Source: Sphingobium subterraneum
GTDB taxonomy: Bacteria; Pseudomonadota; Alphaproteobacteria; Sphingomonadales; Sphingomonadaceae
Reading direction: 5' to 3'
DNA: 64,000 bases
Assembly: GCF_014199435.1 (NCBI RefSeq)
Contig: NZ_JACIJP010000001.1
Coordinates: 1,054,001-1,118,000 of the forward strand
Below the pieces are notes generated by a model. The model was given only the letters and a program-made list of their open reading frames with translations, made no database searches and was not told the DNA's origin. Shown here piece by piece: positions 6,279-14,671 of this stretch. Both the position numbers and the translations under genes were made by a program. How positions within the stretch are numbered: position 1 is the first letter of the stretch; each line of letters opens with the position of its first letter.

Positions 6279-7247
6279 TCAAACGGCTTCCGTGGGGATC
6301 ACCACCTCGCGCGAAAAGGGTTCGCCATCCAGTTCGTAGTTATGAACGAAATCATGTGGCACCTCGGGTCCCCAACTTGCGAGAGAGTCCTCCATGCCGT
6401 AGTTTGTCGGTGTCCATGCGACATAATCGTCTATGTGGTCCATATCGGAATAATATTCGAACCAGGACCCCCATGGATCCTGTATATAATGAAAGAAGTT
6501 CGATCCGATCGTGTGTCGCCCGAAGCCCCAGTCGCCGCGACGCGACTTTGCCAGCAATGCGCGTCCACCCCGACCGACTTCATCCGGATCGGCAACCTGA
6601 AAGCTGGCGTGATGGAATCCAACACCGCCTGATTTGGCGAACGCTATGACATGGTGGTCGCTGTCCCTGCGCACGCAGGTGAAGGCAATGATATCCTGTG
6701 CCCGGTCAGCCAACCCCATTCCGAAAGCTTGCGTCACAAACTCCACGCTCGCCATGACGTCCGGCGTGAAGACAAGGACATGGCCCAACCGTAATGGCCT
6801 GACGGGGGCGTAGTTCCGCTGCGGCAGGATCGCGGAACGGCGCTTGCGCACAATGCGGCCCGGTCCGTTGATCTCGAAGGGGGTGGATGGAACGGCTAAC
6901 TCGTTATCGGCCGGATGTTCGCAAAGGTGAAACAGCATGCCGTGGGGATCGAGCACCCATAACCCTTCCGGATCGAAGCCTGCAGGTGCTTCGGTAACCC
7001 GCCCTCCGAGCCGCTGGACGTCCAGGGCAATTTCATCGAGGCGTTCTGCGCAGAGCTGAATGTGGTGGAGCCGCTTCCGAGCCGCTCCGCCGATAAGGGT
7101 GATCGACGCGCGATCCTGCTCCTTGCAGCGCATATGGGCGCGGTTTCCCTCCACCATAGCGACGAGGCCCGCATCGGAATAGAAGCGCACCCCCACTTCC
7201 AAGTCCGGAATTTCGAGCGTCAGCGATAAGAGTCCCAATACTGCCAT
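6279..7247 (-). CDS. VOC-family extradiol ring-cleavage dioxygenase
   Basis: A 322-residue type I extradiol dioxygenase, predicted to open a catechol ring next to the hydroxyls using Fe(II) and O2. Two vicinal-oxygen-chelate halves are visible. The metal ligands fit H156 (LGHVLVF), H212/H213 (FHHASF) and E264 (GSWFEYY), the last within the family signature HYIQDPWGSWFE. The ATG at 7247 is chosen because AGAGGAGAGG sits just upstream; the frame stays open further 5' without a comparable ribosome site. It is the third gene of the operon with the FAH hydrolase and FAD hydroxylase. Which catechol is cleaved cannot be read from the sequence. Confidence 0.87.
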   Translation of the reverse strand: MAVLGLLSLTLEIPDLEVGVRFYSDAGLVAMVEGNRAHMRCKEQDRASITLIGGAARKRLHHIQLCAERLDEIALDVQRLGGRVTEAPAGFDPEGLWVLDPHGMLFHLCEHPADNELAVPSTPFEINGPGRIVRKRRSAILPQRNYAPVRPLRLGHVLVFTPDVMASVEFVTQAFGMGLADRAQDIIAFTCVRRDSDHHVIAFAKSGGVGFHHASFQVADPDEVGRGGRALLAKSRRGDWGFGRHTIGSNFFHYIQDPWGSWFEYYSDMDHIDDYVAWTPTNYGMEDSLASWGPEVPHDFVHNYELDGEPFSREVVIPTEAV

Positions 7248-7264
7248 GACATCCTCTCCTCTGG

Positions 7265-8122
7265 TCAGATCGTTGCGACCCTGTTTTCGATGGCGCCGAT
7301 GGATTCGACCTCGCACCGGATCAGATCTCCCGGCTGCAGAAAGACTTGCGGCTCCCTGCCGACGCCCACACCTTCCGGCGTGCCTGTGGCGATCAGATCT
7401 CCGCTTTCCAATGTGAAGGCCGTCGACAGGTAGGCAATCTGCGCCCACAGATTGTGGATCATGTTGGCGGTATTATTGTCCTGCCGCAGTTCACCATTGA
7501 CCCAGCAACGCAATCTCAACGCGTGGGGATCGGGGACTTCATCGGCGGTCACGATCCAGGGCCCGATCGGCCCATGCGTATCGAACGACTTGCCCATGGT
7601 GAACGTGGCCGAGTGAAATTGCCAGTCACGCGCCGACACGTCGTTGCCGACGCAATAGCCGAACACATGGGCGGGTGCTTCGTCTTCCGTGACACCCTTG
7701 GCCGGTTTGCCGATGACTGCGACCAGCTCGACCTCATAGTCGAGCTTTTCGGTCACTCCGGGGTCGATTTCGTCATAGGGCCCGGAAATACATGTCGTCT
7801 GCTTGTTGAACCAAACCTGGTTCTTGCTGCGCGCAACGCCGAGTTTGTCCGCCTCTTCCAAGTGCTTGGCATAGTTCATGCCAATCGCGAGATATTTGCC
7901 GGGACGCTCTATCGGCGGAAGCAGTTTGACCGCGTCGAGGGTCAACACAGGCTCCGCGTTCGCGACGATGTCCTTCAGATCGGCAAGCGCTTTCTCGCCA
8001 CCTTCCGCGATTTCACGGATCGACCGCCAGGGCGCGCCAGCCGCAGCCAGATCAACGACACCATTTTCCTTGAGTGCGCCGATGCGGGTTTCACCGTCAT
8101 GGCTGTAACGAATAAGCTTCAT
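7265..8122 (-). CDS. Fumarylacetoacetate hydrolase (FAH) family protein
   Basis: A 285-residue FAH-fold enzyme. Family landmarks are NYAKHLEEADKLG, the acidic metal-binding EVELVAVIGKPAKGV region, GYCVGNDVSARDWQF, and GKSFDTHGPIGPWIV followed by LIATGTPEGVGVG. Relatives hydrolyse acylpyruvates or isomerise/decarboxylate ring-cleavage products (HpcE/FAHD1 types). Position between an extradiol dioxygenase and an aromatic hydroxylase supports processing of the meta-cleavage product. The ATG at 8122 has CAGGAAA about 8 nt upstream and is preferred over an in-frame codon at 8140. Confidence 0.9.
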   Translation of the reverse strand: MKLIRYSHDGETRIGALKENGVVDLAAAGAPWRSIREIAEGGEKALADLKDIVANAEPVLTLDAVKLLPPIERPGKYLAIGMNYAKHLEEADKLGVARSKNQVWFNKQTTCISGPYDEIDPGVTEKLDYEVELVAVIGKPAKGVTEDEAPAHVFGYCVGNDVSARDWQFHSATFTMGKSFDTHGPIGPWIVTADEVPDPHALRLRCWVNGELRQDNNTANMIHNLWAQIAYLSTAFTLESGDLIATGTPEGVGVGREPQVFLQPGDLIRCEVESIGAIENRVATI

Positions 8123-8160
8123 ATTATGGGTTTCCTGCAAGAGTGGAGTGCGGTTCCGTC

Positions 8161-9816
8161 TCAGTCTGGCTGGCTTGCCAACATCGCGGTGCTGGATGTT
8201 TGGGCCGCGGTCGCGGATGTCGACGGCGGCACCGGTATTATAAAGCCGGCTGATTTTAGATCCGACAGAAAGTCATCGACCAGCGATGGGAGGTCGTCGG
8301 GCGTGACGGCCCCGCCATAAACATAAAAGTCGGGGCGAACTAACATGGCGCTCCAGCCATTCGCTGCGAAGAAGACGTTCATCCTGCCGTCGAGATCGAC
8401 GAAGCCGTCCGGAGCGTCCCGATCGAAGGACACGATGCGCACATCGAGCGCCGCCAGCGTCTGGATGACGTCGGGGTTCAGGAATGCGTAGGGATCGACC
8501 CCGCCACAGTAGAGCGCGAAATTGGCCCCGACGAACGCGTCCAGGCGCATGCGGTCTTCGCCCCGTTCGATCGTCACATGGGGCGAAAGCAATCCGGCAC
8601 CTTTGGCCAGGGAACCGTCTGCTGCCCGTTGCACTATCCCCGAGGTAAGGGAGGGAAATGGCGGAGGAGGTTCCGCCGAACCATCGAGAAACGCCTTGTC
8701 GCGCTCCGCCGCGGCCTGACTGTCAGGGATGCAGATTATCTTCCCGAGATAGATCGAAATGTCGGTAACCTGGCTAACGTGGGGCCGCCGTTCCATCTCA
8801 TAGGTATCAAGCAGGCGGTCGTCCGCCTTGCCGTCAAGAATGAAGCCCAGTTTCCATTGCAGATTCCAGGCGTCGCGCATGCCCGCACACATGCCTTGCC
8901 CCATAAAGGGCGGCATCACATGCGCAGCGTCGCCCGCGACCATGATCCGCCCCGCTCGCCACTTGCTGGCCATCAATGAGCGGAAGTTGTACACCTTGTG
9001 GCGCACGATTTCGATGTCCTCTGGCCCGGCCCAGCGTTCGAGCAGGCTCCATACCTTCTCCTCGCTCTCCAGATCCTCGATGCGCTCTCCGGGAAGCCGC
9101 ATGAATTCCCAGCGCCGAAACACCCGGTCGCCGCGGATGCCGGCCGGTACGATGGTAGTCGGACGGGTGGGGTTGCAATATTGGCCTGCTGCGGGAAGCC
9201 CCAGCTTTTCGATCGTCGCCCCGTCCTTGAGCATGACGTCGATCACCAGCCAGTCCGCTTCAAATCCGCGATCCTCGCGTTCGCCACCGACTGTTTCGCG
9301 CACCAGCGAATTGGCCCCGTCGCAACCCACCAGGTATCGCGCAGAAAGGGTCTTCTCCTCGCCGGTTTCGCAATGGCGGAGGCGAACATGGACGAGGTCC
9401 CGATCCTGCGTCGCCCCAGTCATTTCCCAGCCGAGATGCAGATCGACCGTCGGCTGCTGAAGCACGGCGTCTTCAAGAGCCTGCTCCAGCGTCGGCTGAT
9501 GGACGAAATTCACCTCTGGTCCACCCGAGATCGATGGCGAAGACCAGTCGATCACCAGAAGCTCTTTCCAGTCGGCGTTGAACCACTGGTATAACGGTCC
9601 GGGTTGTGTGACCGAGGGCAGGATTTCTCCCATACCGTTGGCCGCCAGCACCCGATAGAGTTCGTGATCGACGCAAACGGCACGGGGGAGAGGATAGCGC
9701 GTGGTCCAGCGCTCGACCACGGCAACCTGGCGGCCCTGGCGGCCCAACATCAACGCCAACGATTCACTGACGGGGCCGTAGCCCACCTGGATAACGTCAT
9801 AAACGTCGATGCTCAT
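8161..9816 (-). CDS. FAD-dependent aromatic hydroxylase, MhpA-like
   Basis: A 551-residue class A flavoprotein monooxygenase that should hydroxylate a phenolic ring with NAD(P)H and O2. The N-terminal dinucleotide fold has VGYGPVSESLALMLGRQG; the DG motif is YLVGCDGANSLVRE; the FAD ribityl motif is VAGDAAHVMPPFMGQGM. Overall it resembles 3-(3-hydroxyphenyl)propionate hydroxylase MhpA. It is the promoter-proximal gene of the leftward operon feeding the FAH protein and the extradiol dioxygenase. Its upstream region carries the 13-bp palindrome at 9858-9870. The natural substrate may differ from that of MhpA. Confidence 0.9.
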   Translation of the reverse strand: MSIDVYDVIQVGYGPVSESLALMLGRQGRQVAVVERWTTRYPLPRAVCVDHELYRVLAANGMGEILPSVTQPGPLYQWFNADWKELLVIDWSSPSISGGPEVNFVHQPTLEQALEDAVLQQPTVDLHLGWEMTGATQDRDLVHVRLRHCETGEEKTLSARYLVGCDGANSLVRETVGGEREDRGFEADWLVIDVMLKDGATIEKLGLPAAGQYCNPTRPTTIVPAGIRGDRVFRRWEFMRLPGERIEDLESEEKVWSLLERWAGPEDIEIVRHKVYNFRSLMASKWRAGRIMVAGDAAHVMPPFMGQGMCAGMRDAWNLQWKLGFILDGKADDRLLDTYEMERRPHVSQVTDISIYLGKIICIPDSQAAAERDKAFLDGSAEPPPPFPSLTSGIVQRAADGSLAKGAGLLSPHVTIERGEDRMRLDAFVGANFALYCGGVDPYAFLNPDVIQTLAALDVRIVSFDRDAPDGFVDLDGRMNVFFAANGWSAMLVRPDFYVYGGAVTPDDLPSLVDDFLSDLKSAGFIIPVPPSTSATAAQTSSTAMLASQPD

Positions 9817-9857
9817 GTCAGTCCTACTCCCCTAGCCCAAACTTATAATGTCCTATG

Positions 9858-9891
9858 TGTCATAATGACAGTTTTGATATTACCAAGTCAA
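9858..9891 (-). promoter_or_regulatory. Predicted promoter with palindromic operator for the hydroxylase operon
   Basis: On the minus strand TTGACT (9891-9886) is followed after 15 nt by the perfect palindrome TGTCATTATGACA (9870-9858). A CATTAT -10-like hexamer 18 nt from the -35 box falls inside the palindrome. A repressor bound here would block RNA polymerase. The site lies between the FAD hydroxylase (start 9816) and the divergent tetR gene (start about 10068). The same 13-mer at the same distance from a -35 box occurs at 11067-11100. The promoter and the regulator assignment are inferred. Confidence 0.65.
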
Positions 9892-10067
9892 GGCCGTTTC
9901 GGCGGGATTTTACGACGCCACTCGGGTCATTCTTGCGGAAGAGCATCCGTCGACATCGGCCAAGGGACCTGCGGATGACCTCCCCGCTGCACTGAAGCGG
10001 GCGTTGACCGGTGGGAAAATGCTGCTACGTCACTGTGGAAATGACGATTGAGACAGGGCGAGAAATC

Positions 10068-10811
10068 ATGGCGCCGCTGCGGAATGCATCGCTTCCCGGG
10101 ACAGCCGATACGAAACCGCAAGAGGATCATCGGGTTCGTGTAGCGCGAGAGAAGCGCAAGCGAATGCGTGCGCACCTGATGCAATCGATCATTGCGGTAT
10201 GCTCGGGGCGCAAGCTGACCGGCTCCACCGTGATCGAAGATGTCGTGCGCCACGCCGAGGTGTCGCGAGGAACATTTTACAAGTATTTTGAAACACTTGA
10301 TGAAGCCGTAATCGAAATCGCTTCCGAGCTGGCCGAGGAGATGACGGTTGGCATATCGTCGGTATACGACGTTCTCGATGACCCCATTCTGCGCACGGCC
10401 ACCGGCTTTCAGACGTTTCTTTCGCGCTCTTTGATTGATCCAAATTGGGGTGCGTTCATCATACACCTGGATTTGTTGAACGGAGAGCAGAACCAGATCG
10501 CCAGCAAGGTCAAAGGCGATATTCGGTTGGGCATCCAGACCGGCGATTATTTTGTTAAGTCCGTCGATACGGCCGCCGATCTGTTGATGGGAGCAAAGCA
10601 TGAAGCGATTCGGCGGATTATCGCCGGAGAGCATGATGTAAGCTATATACAGGATATGGCGGCGATGGTGCTCAAGAGCTTCGGAGTATCCCATCACAAG
10701 GCGGAAAAATCCGTCGTCCACAGCTTCGAACGACTGTGCAAGCTTGCTCCCGCCAAATTGAGCTGGTGGAAAACCGATGGCCCGGCTGCACAGTTTCGAT
10801 CCGCTCCCTAG
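10068..10811 (+). CDS. TetR/AcrR-family transcriptional regulator
   Basis: A 247-residue regulator. The N-terminal helix-turn-helix is visible (SGRKLTGSTVIEDVVRHAEVSRGTFYKYFETLDEAV, with the typical FYKYF end). The C-terminal half is a divergent ligand-binding domain ending near LSWW. It is divergent from the hydroxylase operon, with the palindrome 9858-9870 between them, the classic layout for a TetR repressor of its neighbour. It is a paralogue of the regulator at 13769-14479: both contain DHRVRVA(R/K), FYKYF and LSWW. The start is uncertain; GTG 10011 and ATG 10041 are in frame, and ATG 10068 was chosen for the AGGGCGAG before it. Confidence 0.85.
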   Translation: MAPLRNASLPGTADTKPQEDHRVRVAREKRKRMRAHLMQSIIAVCSGRKLTGSTVIEDVVRHAEVSRGTFYKYFETLDEAVIEIASELAEEMTVGISSVYDVLDDPILRTATGFQTFLSRSLIDPNWGAFIIHLDLLNGEQNQIASKVKGDIRLGIQTGDYFVKSVDTAADLLMGAKHEAIRRIIAGEHDVSYIQDMAAMVLKSFGVSHHKAEKSVVHSFERLCKLAPAKLSWWKTDGPAAQFRSAP

Positions 10812-11066
10812 CCATTGCGCGGGGCGCACAGAACACTTGCTGGAAGAGAGTTCCAGGCAGGCCAAGGACATGTGACGATCAAGAATCGCTGCGTAATCAT
10901 AAGAATAAGCCGTTGACAGCACTCAACCGGAGCAAAAATCGCTCTGAAACCTCCTTTCCGATCGCCCACCCGCCCTGCACAGTGACATCCTGCGCTCATG
11001 AAACCGAGGAATGCCGGGCCCGCAGGGACGTTTAAAGACATAGGCTGCGGCAAGAAATCTTTTCGA
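10812..11066. other. Intergenic stretch after the first tetR gene
   Basis: No convincing gene is seen on either strand. A small inverted repeat (CTGGAA, 5-nt loop, TTCCAG; 10840-10856) just after the tetR stop could be a weak terminator. A TTGACA at 10913-10918 lacks a good -10 partner. Together with 11107-11481 this makes about 670 bases of mostly non-coding DNA between the regulator and the TonB receptor. Confidence 0.4.
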
Positions 11067-11106
11067 TTGACATCATAAAAGCATTAATGTCATTATGACA
11101 TTAATG
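11067..11106 (+). promoter_or_regulatory. Predicted promoter with perfect 25-bp palindromic operator
   Basis: TTGACA (11067-11072) is followed after 18 nt by CATTAT (11091-11096), a plausible sigma-70-type promoter reading toward the TonB receptor. The -10 is embedded in a perfect palindrome of two 12-nt arms (11082-11093 and 11095-11106) around one central T. Its 13-bp core TGTCATTATGACA (11088-11100) is identical to the core before the hydroxylase operon, and both cores start 15 nt after the -35 box. Regulation by one of the two TetR paralogues is inferred. Confidence 0.65.
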
Positions 11107-11481
11107 AAACTCAAGGTTGCCTGAGCACGTCAACCGCGGAAGAGTTTCGAGACGGGAGAGATGGCTTTGGGCGTTGACCGAAGAGGCGCAATCGGGATCG
11201 ATAGGGCAGCGCTGCGTTCGCAGTTGCCTGCGCGCCGGGCTACGCCTGCGGTCGATCACTTTGCGCATGCATGCATCCGGCCAAGCGAGATACCTGCGGG
11301 TTTCCTGCGTGAACACGTCACCCTATCGATGGACAGGTCACCGCCGCTTGGCGCGATTGGCACGCATTCGGCGAGAAGTCGCCAGTCATGCGCGGAAGAA
11401 GGGCTGACTGGTTCGTGATCCAAAGGCCGCACCGGACGTATCCACAGTTTTTCGACAGACACATAATTCGGGGAGAGAGAA
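11107..11481. other. Long leader before the TonB receptor gene, no gene recognised
   Basis: If the promoter at 11067-11096 drives the receptor gene, its mRNA has a leader of roughly 370 nt. Short open frames exist on the plus strand (for example 11117-11407), but they are Arg-rich, resemble no protein family I know and lack a clear ribosome site. No cobalamin-box-like or other riboswitch signature was recognised. The last bases before the receptor ATG contain its ribosome site (GGGGAGAGAG). Confidence 0.4.
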
Positions 11482-13683
11482 ATGAATATGACAGGTAAAC
11501 TTTACGCATCGGTCTCGCTTCTGCCGTGCCTGCTGCTTTCGGCCACAGCTTTTGCGCAGGACGCGAACACCGCCGGGGCAGCTGCAAGCCCGGCACCGAC
11601 AACCGAGCAGGCGGCGGCGTATGAAGACGAGATCATCATCACCGCCCAGCGCCGCGAAGGCACGGTGCAGGATACGCCGTTGGCCATCGCCGTTCTGTCT
11701 GGCAGTCAGATGGCGTCGGCTCAGATTAACGATCCCACGAAGCTGACCAATGTCACCACGGGCGTACAACTCTCGACCGTTGGCCAGCAACTGGCGCTCT
11801 TCGTACGGGGTGCTGGTGCGCCCGTGGCGAACGTCAGGGCCGATCCGGCGGCGGCGTATTCGATCGATGGCATTGCCATCGCCCGGCCGGTGTCGGTGAA
11901 CGGCGCGTATTATGACCTCGCGCGGGTTGAAGTCGTCAAGGGGCCGCAGGGCACGCTCTACGGCCGCAATTCAACGGTGGGCGCCATCAACATCATTACC
12001 AACCGGCCGAGTTTCAATCTCGAAGGGAGCGTAGAGGTCGAAGCGGGCAACTACGACCTCTTCCGTGGCGAGGCGATGGTGAATGTGCCGCTGTCCGACA
12101 CCTTTGCCCTGCGCGGCGCGGTGCAGGCAACTAAGCGCGACGGCTATCTGTCGAACGGATATAATGATGCGGACAATTACTCCGGTCGGTTGCGTGCGCT
12201 CTATCAACCGTCGAGCGATATATCCCTTCTTCTGACCGCCAGCTATTATCGCGATCATGGCAAGGGTTCAGGGGACGTGTCGCTGAATTCGCCGACCGGC
12301 TCCACCTTCACAAATGATGCATGGTTCGTGAAGGAGGGGCCGCCCAACTTTTTCGATCGGGTCCCGACCAACGGCCATCAGAACCTCAAAAGCCTGATCC
12401 TGAGCGCGGAATTTCAAGCCAATCTGAACTTTGCGACCCTCACAGTCATTCCCGCCTATCTGGACACGAGCTATCGCGCGCTCACGTACACGGGTGGGTT
12501 CGAACAGCGCATCGACAACAGCGACAAACAGAAAAGTGTCGAGGTGCGTTTGGCCTCTCCGGGGAAGCAGACGATAAGCTGGATCATTGGTGGACTTTAT
12601 CTGGATGACACGCAGGACGGCTACACCGATCTCGGGTCGCGCCCGGGCGTTCTTCAGCGCGAACAGACCAACGACCTGGGCCTCAAATCCTTTGCCGCCT
12701 TTGGTCAGGTCACCGTCAATCTCACGGATCAGTTCCGGATCACGGGCGGAGCGCGCTATTCCAATGAGACCAAGGATCTGGATGGGTTTGTTCGAAATCT
12801 CGACCTGAACCAGAACCCCCTCCCCGGCCAGCCGGTGCTGCCGTCCATTGCCCATCGCAATTTCGAAGACATCAGCTACCGCGTGGGTCTGGAATATGAC
12901 GTATCACCCGATAGCCTGCTCTATGCTTCCGTCGCCACCGGATACAAGGCGGGCGGGTTCAACGTCGGGCTGCCGCCTGTAAATCCGGGAGATCTGCCCA
13001 ACAGCTTCGACCCCGAAAGCATGACAGCTTATACGATCGGGTCGAAGAACGTCTTTGCGAATAATCGCGTGCGGCTCAACCTGGAGGCTTGGTACTGGGA
13101 TTATCGCGATGTCCAGCAGGTGCAGTTCGGCTTTGTGAATCCGCGTCCCGCCTTTGCTCTGGTAACCTACAATGCAGCCAAGCAGGAGAGCTATGGCGCG
13201 GAAATCGATGGCTCCGTCCGGATCGGCGATGGTGGCACGTTCAGCGGAAACCTGACATACACGCATTCCACCTGGAAAGACTTTGCTTTACCTGGATTTG
13301 TGTTCGGCCCTTTCAACATACCGGCGAGCAACCTGAGTGGCGCGGACACCCCCTTTGCGCCGCGATGGGCAGCCAACCTGTCTTACACGCACGCGCTGAA
13401 AACCTCGAACGGCGGCGTCATAACCCCGGGCATTCGCACGCGCATCCGCAGTGCCCAGACATTGAACACGACAGGTGTGATCGGTAGCCGGGTGGACGGC
13501 ACCATGTCGACGGACATCTGGGTGACCTATCAATCGCCGGATTCCGGGATTGAGGTTCAGCTTTATGCGAACAACCTGGAAGACGAACCTGTGTTCAGTT
13601 TCTCCGGCGTGACACCCGCCGGTCATTGGGGGCGGCCGGGCAATCCGCTGACCTTCGGCATTCGGGCCAAGACCACGTTCTGA
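11482..13683 (+). CDS. TonB-dependent outer membrane receptor
   Basis: A 733-residue outer-membrane gated channel for energy-driven uptake. It has a signal peptide ending ATAFAQ (about residue 26), a TonB-box-like EDEIIITAQRREG segment, a plug domain (LSGSQMASAQ ... GPQGTLYGRNSTVGAINIIT), and a long beta-barrel finishing in a terminal Phe (AKTTF) as needed for BAM insertion. The ATG is preceded by GGGGAGAGAG. It lies between two paralogous TetR regulators and beside aromatic catabolic enzymes, so an aromatic or xenobiotic ligand is more likely than a siderophore. This is inferred from context. No inner-membrane transporter gene is adjacent. Confidence 0.95.
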   Translation: MNMTGKLYASVSLLPCLLLSATAFAQDANTAGAAASPAPTTEQAAAYEDEIIITAQRREGTVQDTPLAIAVLSGSQMASAQINDPTKLTNVTTGVQLSTVGQQLALFVRGAGAPVANVRADPAAAYSIDGIAIARPVSVNGAYYDLARVEVVKGPQGTLYGRNSTVGAINIITNRPSFNLEGSVEVEAGNYDLFRGEAMVNVPLSDTFALRGAVQATKRDGYLSNGYNDADNYSGRLRALYQPSSDISLLLTASYYRDHGKGSGDVSLNSPTGSTFTNDAWFVKEGPPNFFDRVPTNGHQNLKSLILSAEFQANLNFATLTVIPAYLDTSYRALTYTGGFEQRIDNSDKQKSVEVRLASPGKQTISWIIGGLYLDDTQDGYTDLGSRPGVLQREQTNDLGLKSFAAFGQVTVNLTDQFRITGGARYSNETKDLDGFVRNLDLNQNPLPGQPVLPSIAHRNFEDISYRVGLEYDVSPDSLLYASVATGYKAGGFNVGLPPVNPGDLPNSFDPESMTAYTIGSKNVFANNRVRLNLEAWYWDYRDVQQVQFGFVNPRPAFALVTYNAAKQESYGAEIDGSVRIGDGGTFSGNLTYTHSTWKDFALPGFVFGPFNIPASNLSGADTPFAPRWAANLSYTHALKTSNGGVITPGIRTRIRSAQTLNTTGVIGSRVDGTMSTDIWVTYQSPDSGIEVQLYANNLEDEPVFSFSGVTPAGHWGRPGNPLTFGIRAKTTF

Positions 13684-13768: not shown

Positions 13769-14479
13769 TCAGGCGTGTTCGCGCCATTGCAGCCAGGGAT
13801 CGCGCCACCAGCTGAGCCGATCGGGCGCGGCGCCGCGGATGAAGATGGTTGCCTCCCCGACCAGAGCGCGAGCTTCCTCTCTCTGCACGCCAAGGCTGAT
13901 AAGAATGATCGACATGATGTTGTCCACGAATTCGCGCCGGACCTCTGTGGATCGCGCGTTGGATCGGATGGTTTCCCGCATCGCTCCGATGGCCAGCGTG
14001 CGGGCCGCGACGGCGTCCATGAAATGGACCTCGCCCTGCGCGGAGGCCTCCGCAAGATGCTGGGTGATGCCGTCAAACAGAGCGCCGTCGGTGCGCAACA
14101 TATCGCTGTGAGCGACGAAGGCGGCCCACGTCCTGTCGAGCACGCTACGCATCAAAAACAGCTGCAGCGAAATGGTGAACAGCATGATGGGTCGTTTCTG
14201 GTCAACCACGAGATGCTTGAGACTTTCGATCATCTCATCGACAAGGTCGCCAGCCCGCCGCTCTATCGCTTCATCCACCGAGACAAAATATTTGTAGAAC
14301 GTCGCGCGGGAGACATCCGCGCGCGCAATGACCTCATCAACCGAGGGGGGGCCGGTTAGTATATGCTCGGCGTAGCATTCCATCGTGGCTCGCAACAACC
14401 GCTCGGTCATGCGCTCTCGACGTATCTTCGCCACGCGGACGCGGTGGTCCTGATTATCCAGTGTCTCGATCGGTTTCAT
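13769..14479 (-). CDS. TetR/AcrR-family transcriptional regulator (second paralogue)
   Basis: A 236-residue regulator with an N-terminal TetR helix-turn-helix (ILTGPPSVDEVIARADVSRATFYKYFVSVDEA). It shares DHRVRVAK, FYKYF, the spacing of helices and the C-terminal LSWW motif with the regulator at 10068-10811, so the two derive from a duplication. It is divergent from the amidohydrolase gene at 14672 and convergent with the TonB receptor. The ATG at 14479 is chosen because the conserved N-terminus starts there; the frame continues further upstream in low-complexity sequence. Its ligand is unknown. Confidence 0.85.
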   Translation of the reverse strand: MKPIETLDNQDHRVRVAKIRRERMTERLLRATMECYAEHILTGPPSVDEVIARADVSRATFYKYFVSVDEAIERRAGDLVDEMIESLKHLVVDQKRPIMLFTISLQLFLMRSVLDRTWAAFVAHSDMLRTDGALFDGITQHLAEASAQGEVHFMDAVAARTLAIGAMRETIRSNARSTEVRREFVDNIMSIILISLGVQREEARALVGEATIFIRGAAPDRLSWWRDPWLQWREHA

Positions 14480-14671
14480 AGCCACCCGGCTAGCATTAAT
14501 TCTCTGTTCCGCAAATGATACCGCATGCCCCTCCCCGCGCGGACAGAAACATCCGGAATCGCCGACGCCACCTCCCAATCGCTGGGCTGATACGATTTCA
14601 TATTGATCATTATGTGTTTTTTGTAAATGGTGCGGCGTGAAGGCCAGACAGGTGGCCTGCGAGGAGGGATG

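Follow-up and report, generated by a model that had tools for sequence, protein, structure and literature searches.

The Corynebacterium glutamicum resorcinol repressor RolR, a regulator of aromatic catabolism, recognizes its ligand through the motif Asp94–Arg145–Arg148–Asp149, in which Asp149 is described as deciding resorcinol recognition (PMC3086911). It is reported to act on the neighbouring catabolic operon and on its own gene at rolO, an operator that contains TGAAC-N4-GTTCA and TTCAT-N2-ATGAA, lies downstream of the start sites as a roadblock, and is bound by a pair of RolR dimers (PMC9210681). In Sphingobium sp. SYK-6, DdvR is described as repressing both the TonB-dependent receptor gene ddvT and the aromatic catabolic gene ligXa (PMC6874591), and in Sphingobium sp. 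SHPJ-2 loss of PheR is reported to raise aromatic-catabolism genes together with TonB/receptor genes, the receptor effect coming from transcriptomics (PMC13273656). Joint control of an aromatic pathway and a TonB receptor by one repressor is already a known principle in Sphingobium. The fde naringenin locus of Herbaspirillum seropedicae has a LysR-type regulator. A second-hand account of this locus gives an FAD monooxygenase followed by A-ring fission of the phenolic (PMC8552027). The locus described here resembles DdvR–DdvT in that a single repressor would serve a receptor and aromatic catabolism, and resembles fde, by description only, in its chemistry of an FAD monooxygenase followed by ring fission; its proposed repressor, TetR1, is unlike both the MarR-type DdvR and PheR, described as an IclR-family protein with a GCAACG motif. 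Neither the operator reported below, nor its fusion with an extended −10, nor its assignment to a regulator was found by a literature search for the operator sequence, in which most subscription journals were outside the scope and all matching papers were, judged by their titles, on mammalian subjects.

Within the window (the whole stretch of Sphingobium subterraneum DNA analysed here, 64,000 nucleotides), the proposed regulated operon is encoded on the minus strand and begins with an FAD-dependent aromatic hydroxylase of the PRK06183 type (8161–9816), followed by a fumarylacetoacetate-hydrolase-family enzyme (7265–8140) and a relative of the extradiol (glyoxalase-fold) ring-cleavage dioxygenases (6279–7448, the true start being probably within the open reading frame). 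On the plus strand, tetR1 (10068–10811, with 10041 or 10011 as possible alternative starts), encoding the proposed repressor, a RolR-like TetR regulator, is followed by a TonB-dependent receptor gene with an intact reading frame (11482–13683). A paralog, tetR2 (13769–14479, minus strand), whose product is 31% identical to TetR1, comes next, and beyond it lie an amidohydrolase gene and then a gene for an acyl-CoA-dehydrogenase-like enzyme. The nearest relative of TetR1 among those searched is found in the same genus, in S. fluviale CHR27 (92% identical). From the sequence comparisons described below, we consider it very probable that a 13-bp palindrome occurring before the hydroxylase operon and upstream of the receptor gene is the operator of TetR1, and that both promoters are co-repressed until an aromatic compound of the pathway, or an early intermediate, releases the protein.

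The preliminary description of this DNA had reported the same 13-bp palindrome on both strands, equally spaced from two −35 boxes and enclosing a −10 candidate, and all of these positions are exact. Operator 1, TGTCATTATGACA (TGTCA-N3-TGACA), occupies 9858–9870 on the minus strand, between the hydroxylase–hydrolase–dioxygenase operon and tetR1, is identical in S. fluviale, and begins 15 nt after the −35 hexamer TTGACT (9891–9886, minus strand), which is conserved in relatives; operator 2, again TGTCATTATGACA, occupies 11088–11100 on the plus strand and begins 15 nt after TTGACA (11067–11072). The candidate −10 hexamer CATTAT lies inside each palindrome (9862–9867, minus strand; 11091–11096, plus strand) behind an 18-bp spacer, and TG stands one base before it, as in an extended −10. 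A sigma-70 promoter scan of 9780–11500 gave three promoter-like matches (shuffle mean 1.3), including both TTGACT-18-CATTAT (9/12 matches) and TTGACA-18-CATTAT (10/12), with the TG before the −10 in each. The genome-wide scan proposed earlier located TGTCATWATGACA at only two places in the 3.75-Mb genome (34 contigs), each beginning 15 nt after TTGACW; with T or A allowed at the centre the number was again two, against none for the reversed control, and with up to two mismatches 35 places were found, against nine for the control. On the plus strand at 9837–9866, the first palindrome also provides CATAAT as a −10 towards tetR1, the matching −35 position being TTGAAC in S. fluviale and only CCAAAC in the window, and it is possible that one operator could serve as two −10 boxes, towards the hydroxylase and towards tetR1.

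Of the 33 remaining places with up to two mismatches, four belong to one second aromatic-catabolism cluster outside the window (G000:C1:840001-860000), with near-copies of the operator at 8753, 9078, 9631, and 13666 of that stretch, of which two have an almost identical context, TTGACATATWTC-TGTCRTWAYGACA. This cluster encodes an intradiol dioxygenase, an Fe-type alcohol dehydrogenase, a dienelactone hydrolase, an acyl-CoA-dehydrogenase-like enzyme, a TonB receptor, and a TetR protein with a TetR_C_40 domain, and may be a RolR-like regulon paralogous to the present one, its operator being related. Elsewhere in the genome, an exact TGTCAWNATGACA occurs just once (C5:101268, TGTCATGATGACA); it overlaps an open frame beside what we take, from reading the translations, to be nusG and ribosomal-protein genes, and was regarded as a chance occurrence.

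The arrangement of −35 hexamer and operator recurs in other genomes. The composite TTGACW-N15-TGTCA-N3-TGACA precedes the hydroxylase gene at seven of the eight loci having both a hydroxylase and a TetR1 homolog of at least 50% identity (the window, S. fluviale, L107, L108, L109, L110, and L200 in genome G284), the exception being L185, which carries CGTCATTATGACA and no −35 at the composite distance. No composite was found at any of three hydroxylases of more than 50% identity that lack a TetR1 ortholog: two are plasmid-borne relatives (L194 and L195, 56% identical) whose TetR proteins are 28% identical to TetR1, a 9/10 site lying near that of L194 and none near that of L195, and the third (53% identical) is in G415, where neither a TetR1 match at E ≤ 1e-20 nor a TetR2-like match was detected and the locus fetched contains no TGTCA-N3-TGACA-type site. 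Two further genes preceded by the composite are a sulfatase gene in S. fluviale and, with TTGACG as the −35, a gene of L105 that is divergent to tetR1 and was read as a cytochrome P450. The element occurs in rearranged gene orders, before a hydroxylase, before a sulfatase followed by a TonB receptor (a setting found only in S. fluviale and, as a remnant, in the window), and before a P450-like gene, and it co-occurs with TetR1 orthologs, which favours the earlier suggestion of a shared repressor for uptake and catabolism. Two relatives, L105 (before 7760, minus strand) and L108 (before 1501, minus strand), have the palindrome in the interval separating tetR1 from a divergently oriented gene that we read as a cytochrome P450, and a P450 may accordingly be part of their regulon.

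Among 480 distinct genomes (94 of the genus and 397 of the family, 11 being shared), the exact composite TTGAC-N16-TGTCA-N3-TGACA was found in three, at five places, all before hydroxylase or sulfatase–receptor genes: twice in the genome of the window (G000), twice in S. fluviale, and once in G284, i.e., in two of the genus and two of the family genomes, with TetR1 orthologs of 100, 92, and 67% identity, respectively. With one mismatch allowed, no composite was detected in four other genomes with TetR1 relatives, G245 (67%), G219 (54%), G525 (locus L113, 50%), and G524 (locus L112, 43%); G245 and G524 contain exact palindromes with no −35 at the composite distance, and in L112 these are close to tetR. 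In L183, a TetR1 ortholog (67%) is flanked by TGTCAAGATGACA and TGTCATGATGACA at 9157 and 10181, with no −35 at N15, and one of these palindromes lies before a flavoprotein-like gene. Ten aligned elements, including two near-duplicate pairs from the window and S. fluviale, all share TTGAC, TGTCA, and TGACA. An 18-bp spacer puts A and T into −10 positions 2 and 6, and TG one base before, in all ten, and spacers of 16, 17, or 19 bp give this A and T in none; because the A and T come from the palindrome itself, only the fixed distance to the −35 counts as independent support for a promoter.

The protein proposed to read these sites is worth comparing with RolR. In TetR1, the Pfam scores for TetR_N (22.3, cut-off 24) and TetR_C_40 (25.9, cut-off 27) are both just under threshold, and its AlphaFold model (mean pLDDT 85.4, pTM 0.77) consists of helices only, with a predicted N-terminal helix-turn-helix and an all-helical ligand domain as in the TetR family; a palindromic candidate operator in the promoter region, beside its own gene, likewise agrees with membership in this family. 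Its nearest solved relative is RolR (PDB 3AQS/3AQT), as indicated by a profile match of E 1e-19 covering positions 9–207 of 225 and by Foldseek ranks 1–4 for the model, with a TM-score of 0.50–0.55 by query length and 22–24% identity; the other best Foldseek matches are presumably TetR-family regulators as well. Of the four polar ligand residues of RolR, one (Asp149) is identical in TetR1 and one is conservatively replaced (Arg145 to Lys), whereas Asp94 is changed to Ser and Arg148 to Gly, so that TetR1 does not have the RolR ligand motif. The described rolO palindrome TTCAT-N2-ATGAA has the TCAT/ATGA cores in common with the operator of the window, but TGTCA-N3-TGACA is a different sequence from TGAAC-N4-GTTCA and lies in the predicted −10, relative to predicted starts, whereas rolO is described as lying downstream of the start sites. 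A further difference from RolR is the TonB receptor in the proposed TetR1 regulon. On the basis of the sequence and the predicted fold, TetR1 is thus best described as RolR-like and not as a RolR, and a phenolic would be a reasonable guess for its inducer.

A wider survey likewise links the palindrome to this group of regulators. TetR1 homologs were sought in 100 relatives, 94 genus genomes, 397 family genomes, and the GTDB contig collection (where the 80 best of 124 relatives were kept), and palindromes with 5-bp arms and 0–12-bp spacers were counted within 600 bp on each side at 104 distinct TetR1-homolog loci among the fetched stretches, near relatives (e.g., several Cupriavidus) being counted separately here and in the paired-copy counts below. 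GTCAT-N1-ATGAC ranks first, at 32 of the 104 loci as compared with a mean of 0.2 over 13,312 combinations, and was retained at 30 of 100 loci when the four from the window and S. fluviale were left out; TGTCA-N3-TGACA, the same palindrome shifted by one, ranks second (18 loci), and the next unrelated palindrome occurs at 10. By identity to TetR1, GTCAT-N1-ATGAC is present at 6/11 loci (at least 50%), 2/28 (35–50%), 14/39 (30–35%), and 10/26 (below 30%), and TGTCA-N3-TGACA at 6/11, 5/28, 7/39, and 0/26, respectively. Five loci of the highest class have no perfect TGTCA-N3-TGACA in the 600 bp on each side of tetR. In three of them (L106, as seen through G284; L107; L110) a perfect site stands at another place, before the hydroxylase; a 9/10 site is present in L185, and L113 has none in the stretch fetched.

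The sites around these homologs also tend to be paired. At 38 of 47 distinct strong sites (at least 11/12 positions), a second copy matching at least 7/12 positions is found exactly 17 bp away, and at 13 of the 47 the copy at this distance matches at least 9/12. The other offsets from 1 to 45 gave copies of at least 7/12 at 0–6 sites, except for 3, 8, and 20 (11, 18, and 16 sites, respectively), which we put down to self-similarity of the motif; copies of at least 9/12 away from 17 bp occur only at offsets 20 (n = 2) and 31 (n = 1). For both sites of the window, only 7/12 positions agree in the copy 17 bp away: ACTTATAATGTCC (9841–9853, plus strand), which also contains TATAAT on the plus strand, beside operator 1, and CATCATAAAAGCA (11071–11083, plus strand) upstream of operator 2, each identical in S. 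fluviale. This spacing suggests two dimers per operator, and we infer that a second dimer may bind 17 bp away from the first.

The plus-strand promoter had been described as that of the TonB receptor, and its history calls for a modified reading. Between operator 2 and the receptor gene lie remnants of a sulfatase gene (11161–11397, plus strand) in three pieces, 11161–11200, 11279–11354, and 11367–11397, the first falling in a blastn match of 1e-33 that takes in the promoter and the others giving 2e-11 and 0.003. In S. fluviale (L066), where the order of the block is kept, the sulfatase gene downstream of site 2 is intact (479 aa, Pfam Sulfatase E 2.9e-65), and the receptor gene comes after it. 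From this comparison, the promoter appears to be that of a former sulfatase–receptor operon, originally driving both genes; the receptor probably belonged to that operon, an origin that hints at a sulfated aromatic as the original substrate. A sulfatase relative of 65% identity is present in the genome of L105. Operator 2 is, as had been noticed, the centre of a perfect 25-bp palindrome (11082–11106); in S. fluviale the −35 is kept, the spacer has one change, and the core is TGTCATTTTGACA, but the outer arms are absent. The 25-bp palindrome was therefore rejected as the conserved unit; in its place, the alignment gives TGTCA-N3-TGACA with constant spacing to the −35.

The loss of the sulfatase leaves room for a narrower regulon, in which present-day control by the TetR1 operator would extend no further than tetR1 and the hydroxylase operon; the transcript from site 2 would be mostly that of the dead sulfatase, with the receptor poorly expressed or served by another promoter. 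The sulfatase frame is indeed reduced to remnants, with no relative elsewhere in the genome at E ≤ 1e-10, and the receptor starts 394 nt after the start of site 2; however, the −35, the spacer, and operator 2 are nearly unchanged relative to S. fluviale, suggesting that selection has continued, the reading frame of the receptor is intact, and no plus-strand terminator-like site was found in 11100–11482, so that we judge this restriction to be unlikely. It is far less probable still that the palindromes are no operators at all and reflect chance or a terminator-like hairpin at the transcript level. A terminator scan does list the 25-bp palindrome, on the minus strand and with a weak T tail, but gave two terminator-like sites as compared with 1.7 expected, and it is the 13-bp core and the −35 distance, not the outer arms, that are kept in S. 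fluviale; the terminator reading was rejected, and the enrichment of the palindrome around TetR1 homologs and the presence of the element before genes in several arrangements also speak against it.

Which of the two TetR proteins reads the sites can be judged from their distribution. The suggestion that the adjacent tetR genes are the natural candidates holds for TetR1, which co-occurs with the element, but not for TetR2 (14479–13769), or both proteins together, as the main reader. When TetR2 was sought in 13 genomes, orthologs were found in the genome of the window, in S. fluviale (85%), and in G519 (67%), whereas in five genomes that all have the composite (G284 and G520–G523) the sole match was the TetR1 ortholog, at 30–35%. 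G284 is 98% complete; G520–G523, three of which are metagenome bins by title, carry no completeness figure, so that a TetR2 may have been missed there. The five composite genomes having a TetR1 ortholog and no TetR2 match make TetR1 the most likely repressor, and, taken with G415, where the hydroxylase is present without TetR1 and without a site, they indicate that the element follows TetR1. A role for TetR2, alone or beside TetR1, is nevertheless conceivable, since the two proteins, 31% identical, have the near-identical stretches SRGTFYKYF and SRATFYKYF at what we take to be the recognition helix. In L122, moreover, a TetR protein nearer to TetR2 (47%) than to TetR1 (37%) has TGTCATTTTGACA 224 bp downstream, so that TetR2-type proteins may read a similar site, and in the gap between tetR2 and the amidohydrolase gene TTGATCATTRTG, with the TCATTATG core in common, is kept in S. 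fluviale. Against this stand the five genomes and the finding that no 13-mer with up to two mismatches occurs in the window at a distance of 1.5 kb or less from tetR2; we hold such a role to be improbable, and TetR1 (10068–10811) is, on this co-occurrence, most likely the repressor and the sole credible main candidate of the two. At 14600–14630, in the same gap, TTGATCATTRTGT and TTTTTGTAAATGGTGCG are also kept in S. fluviale, and may form a separate TetR2 site with the TCATTATG core.

In the mechanism we propose for TetR1, its dimers would bind TGTCA-N3-TGACA, of which the left half-site and the following bases (TGT-CANNNT) double as the putative extended −10, and the bound repressor would in this way obstruct RNA polymerase at each of the two promoters. 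On entering the cell, an aromatic of the pathway or an early intermediate would then bind TetR1 and free the DNA, turning on the ring-hydroxylation/ring-cleavage operon (9816–6279) and, via site 2, the TonB receptor together. Because site 1 is flanked by tetR1 and the hydroxylase operon, tetR1 is probably autoregulated. Beyond this locus, we lean, if only somewhat, towards the view that the members of a large, mostly uncharacterized RolR-like TetR group, found in several proteobacterial classes, share the operator GTCAT-N1-ATGAC, usually in two copies 17 bp apart from centre to centre, and that sphingomonads fused this operator with an extended −10 whose distance from the −35 is fixed, one code thereby coupling outer-membrane uptake to ring attack; under such an arrangement, operator and promoter could not easily evolve apart. 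The element may supply a compact candidate promoter–operator part for biosensors, and for the RolR-like TetR group it offers a concrete operator consensus, which would enable regulon prediction for many unassigned aromatic-catabolism clusters. For the organism itself, the outcome is a TonB-dependent receptor and a ring-degradation operon linked by a single predicted repressor.
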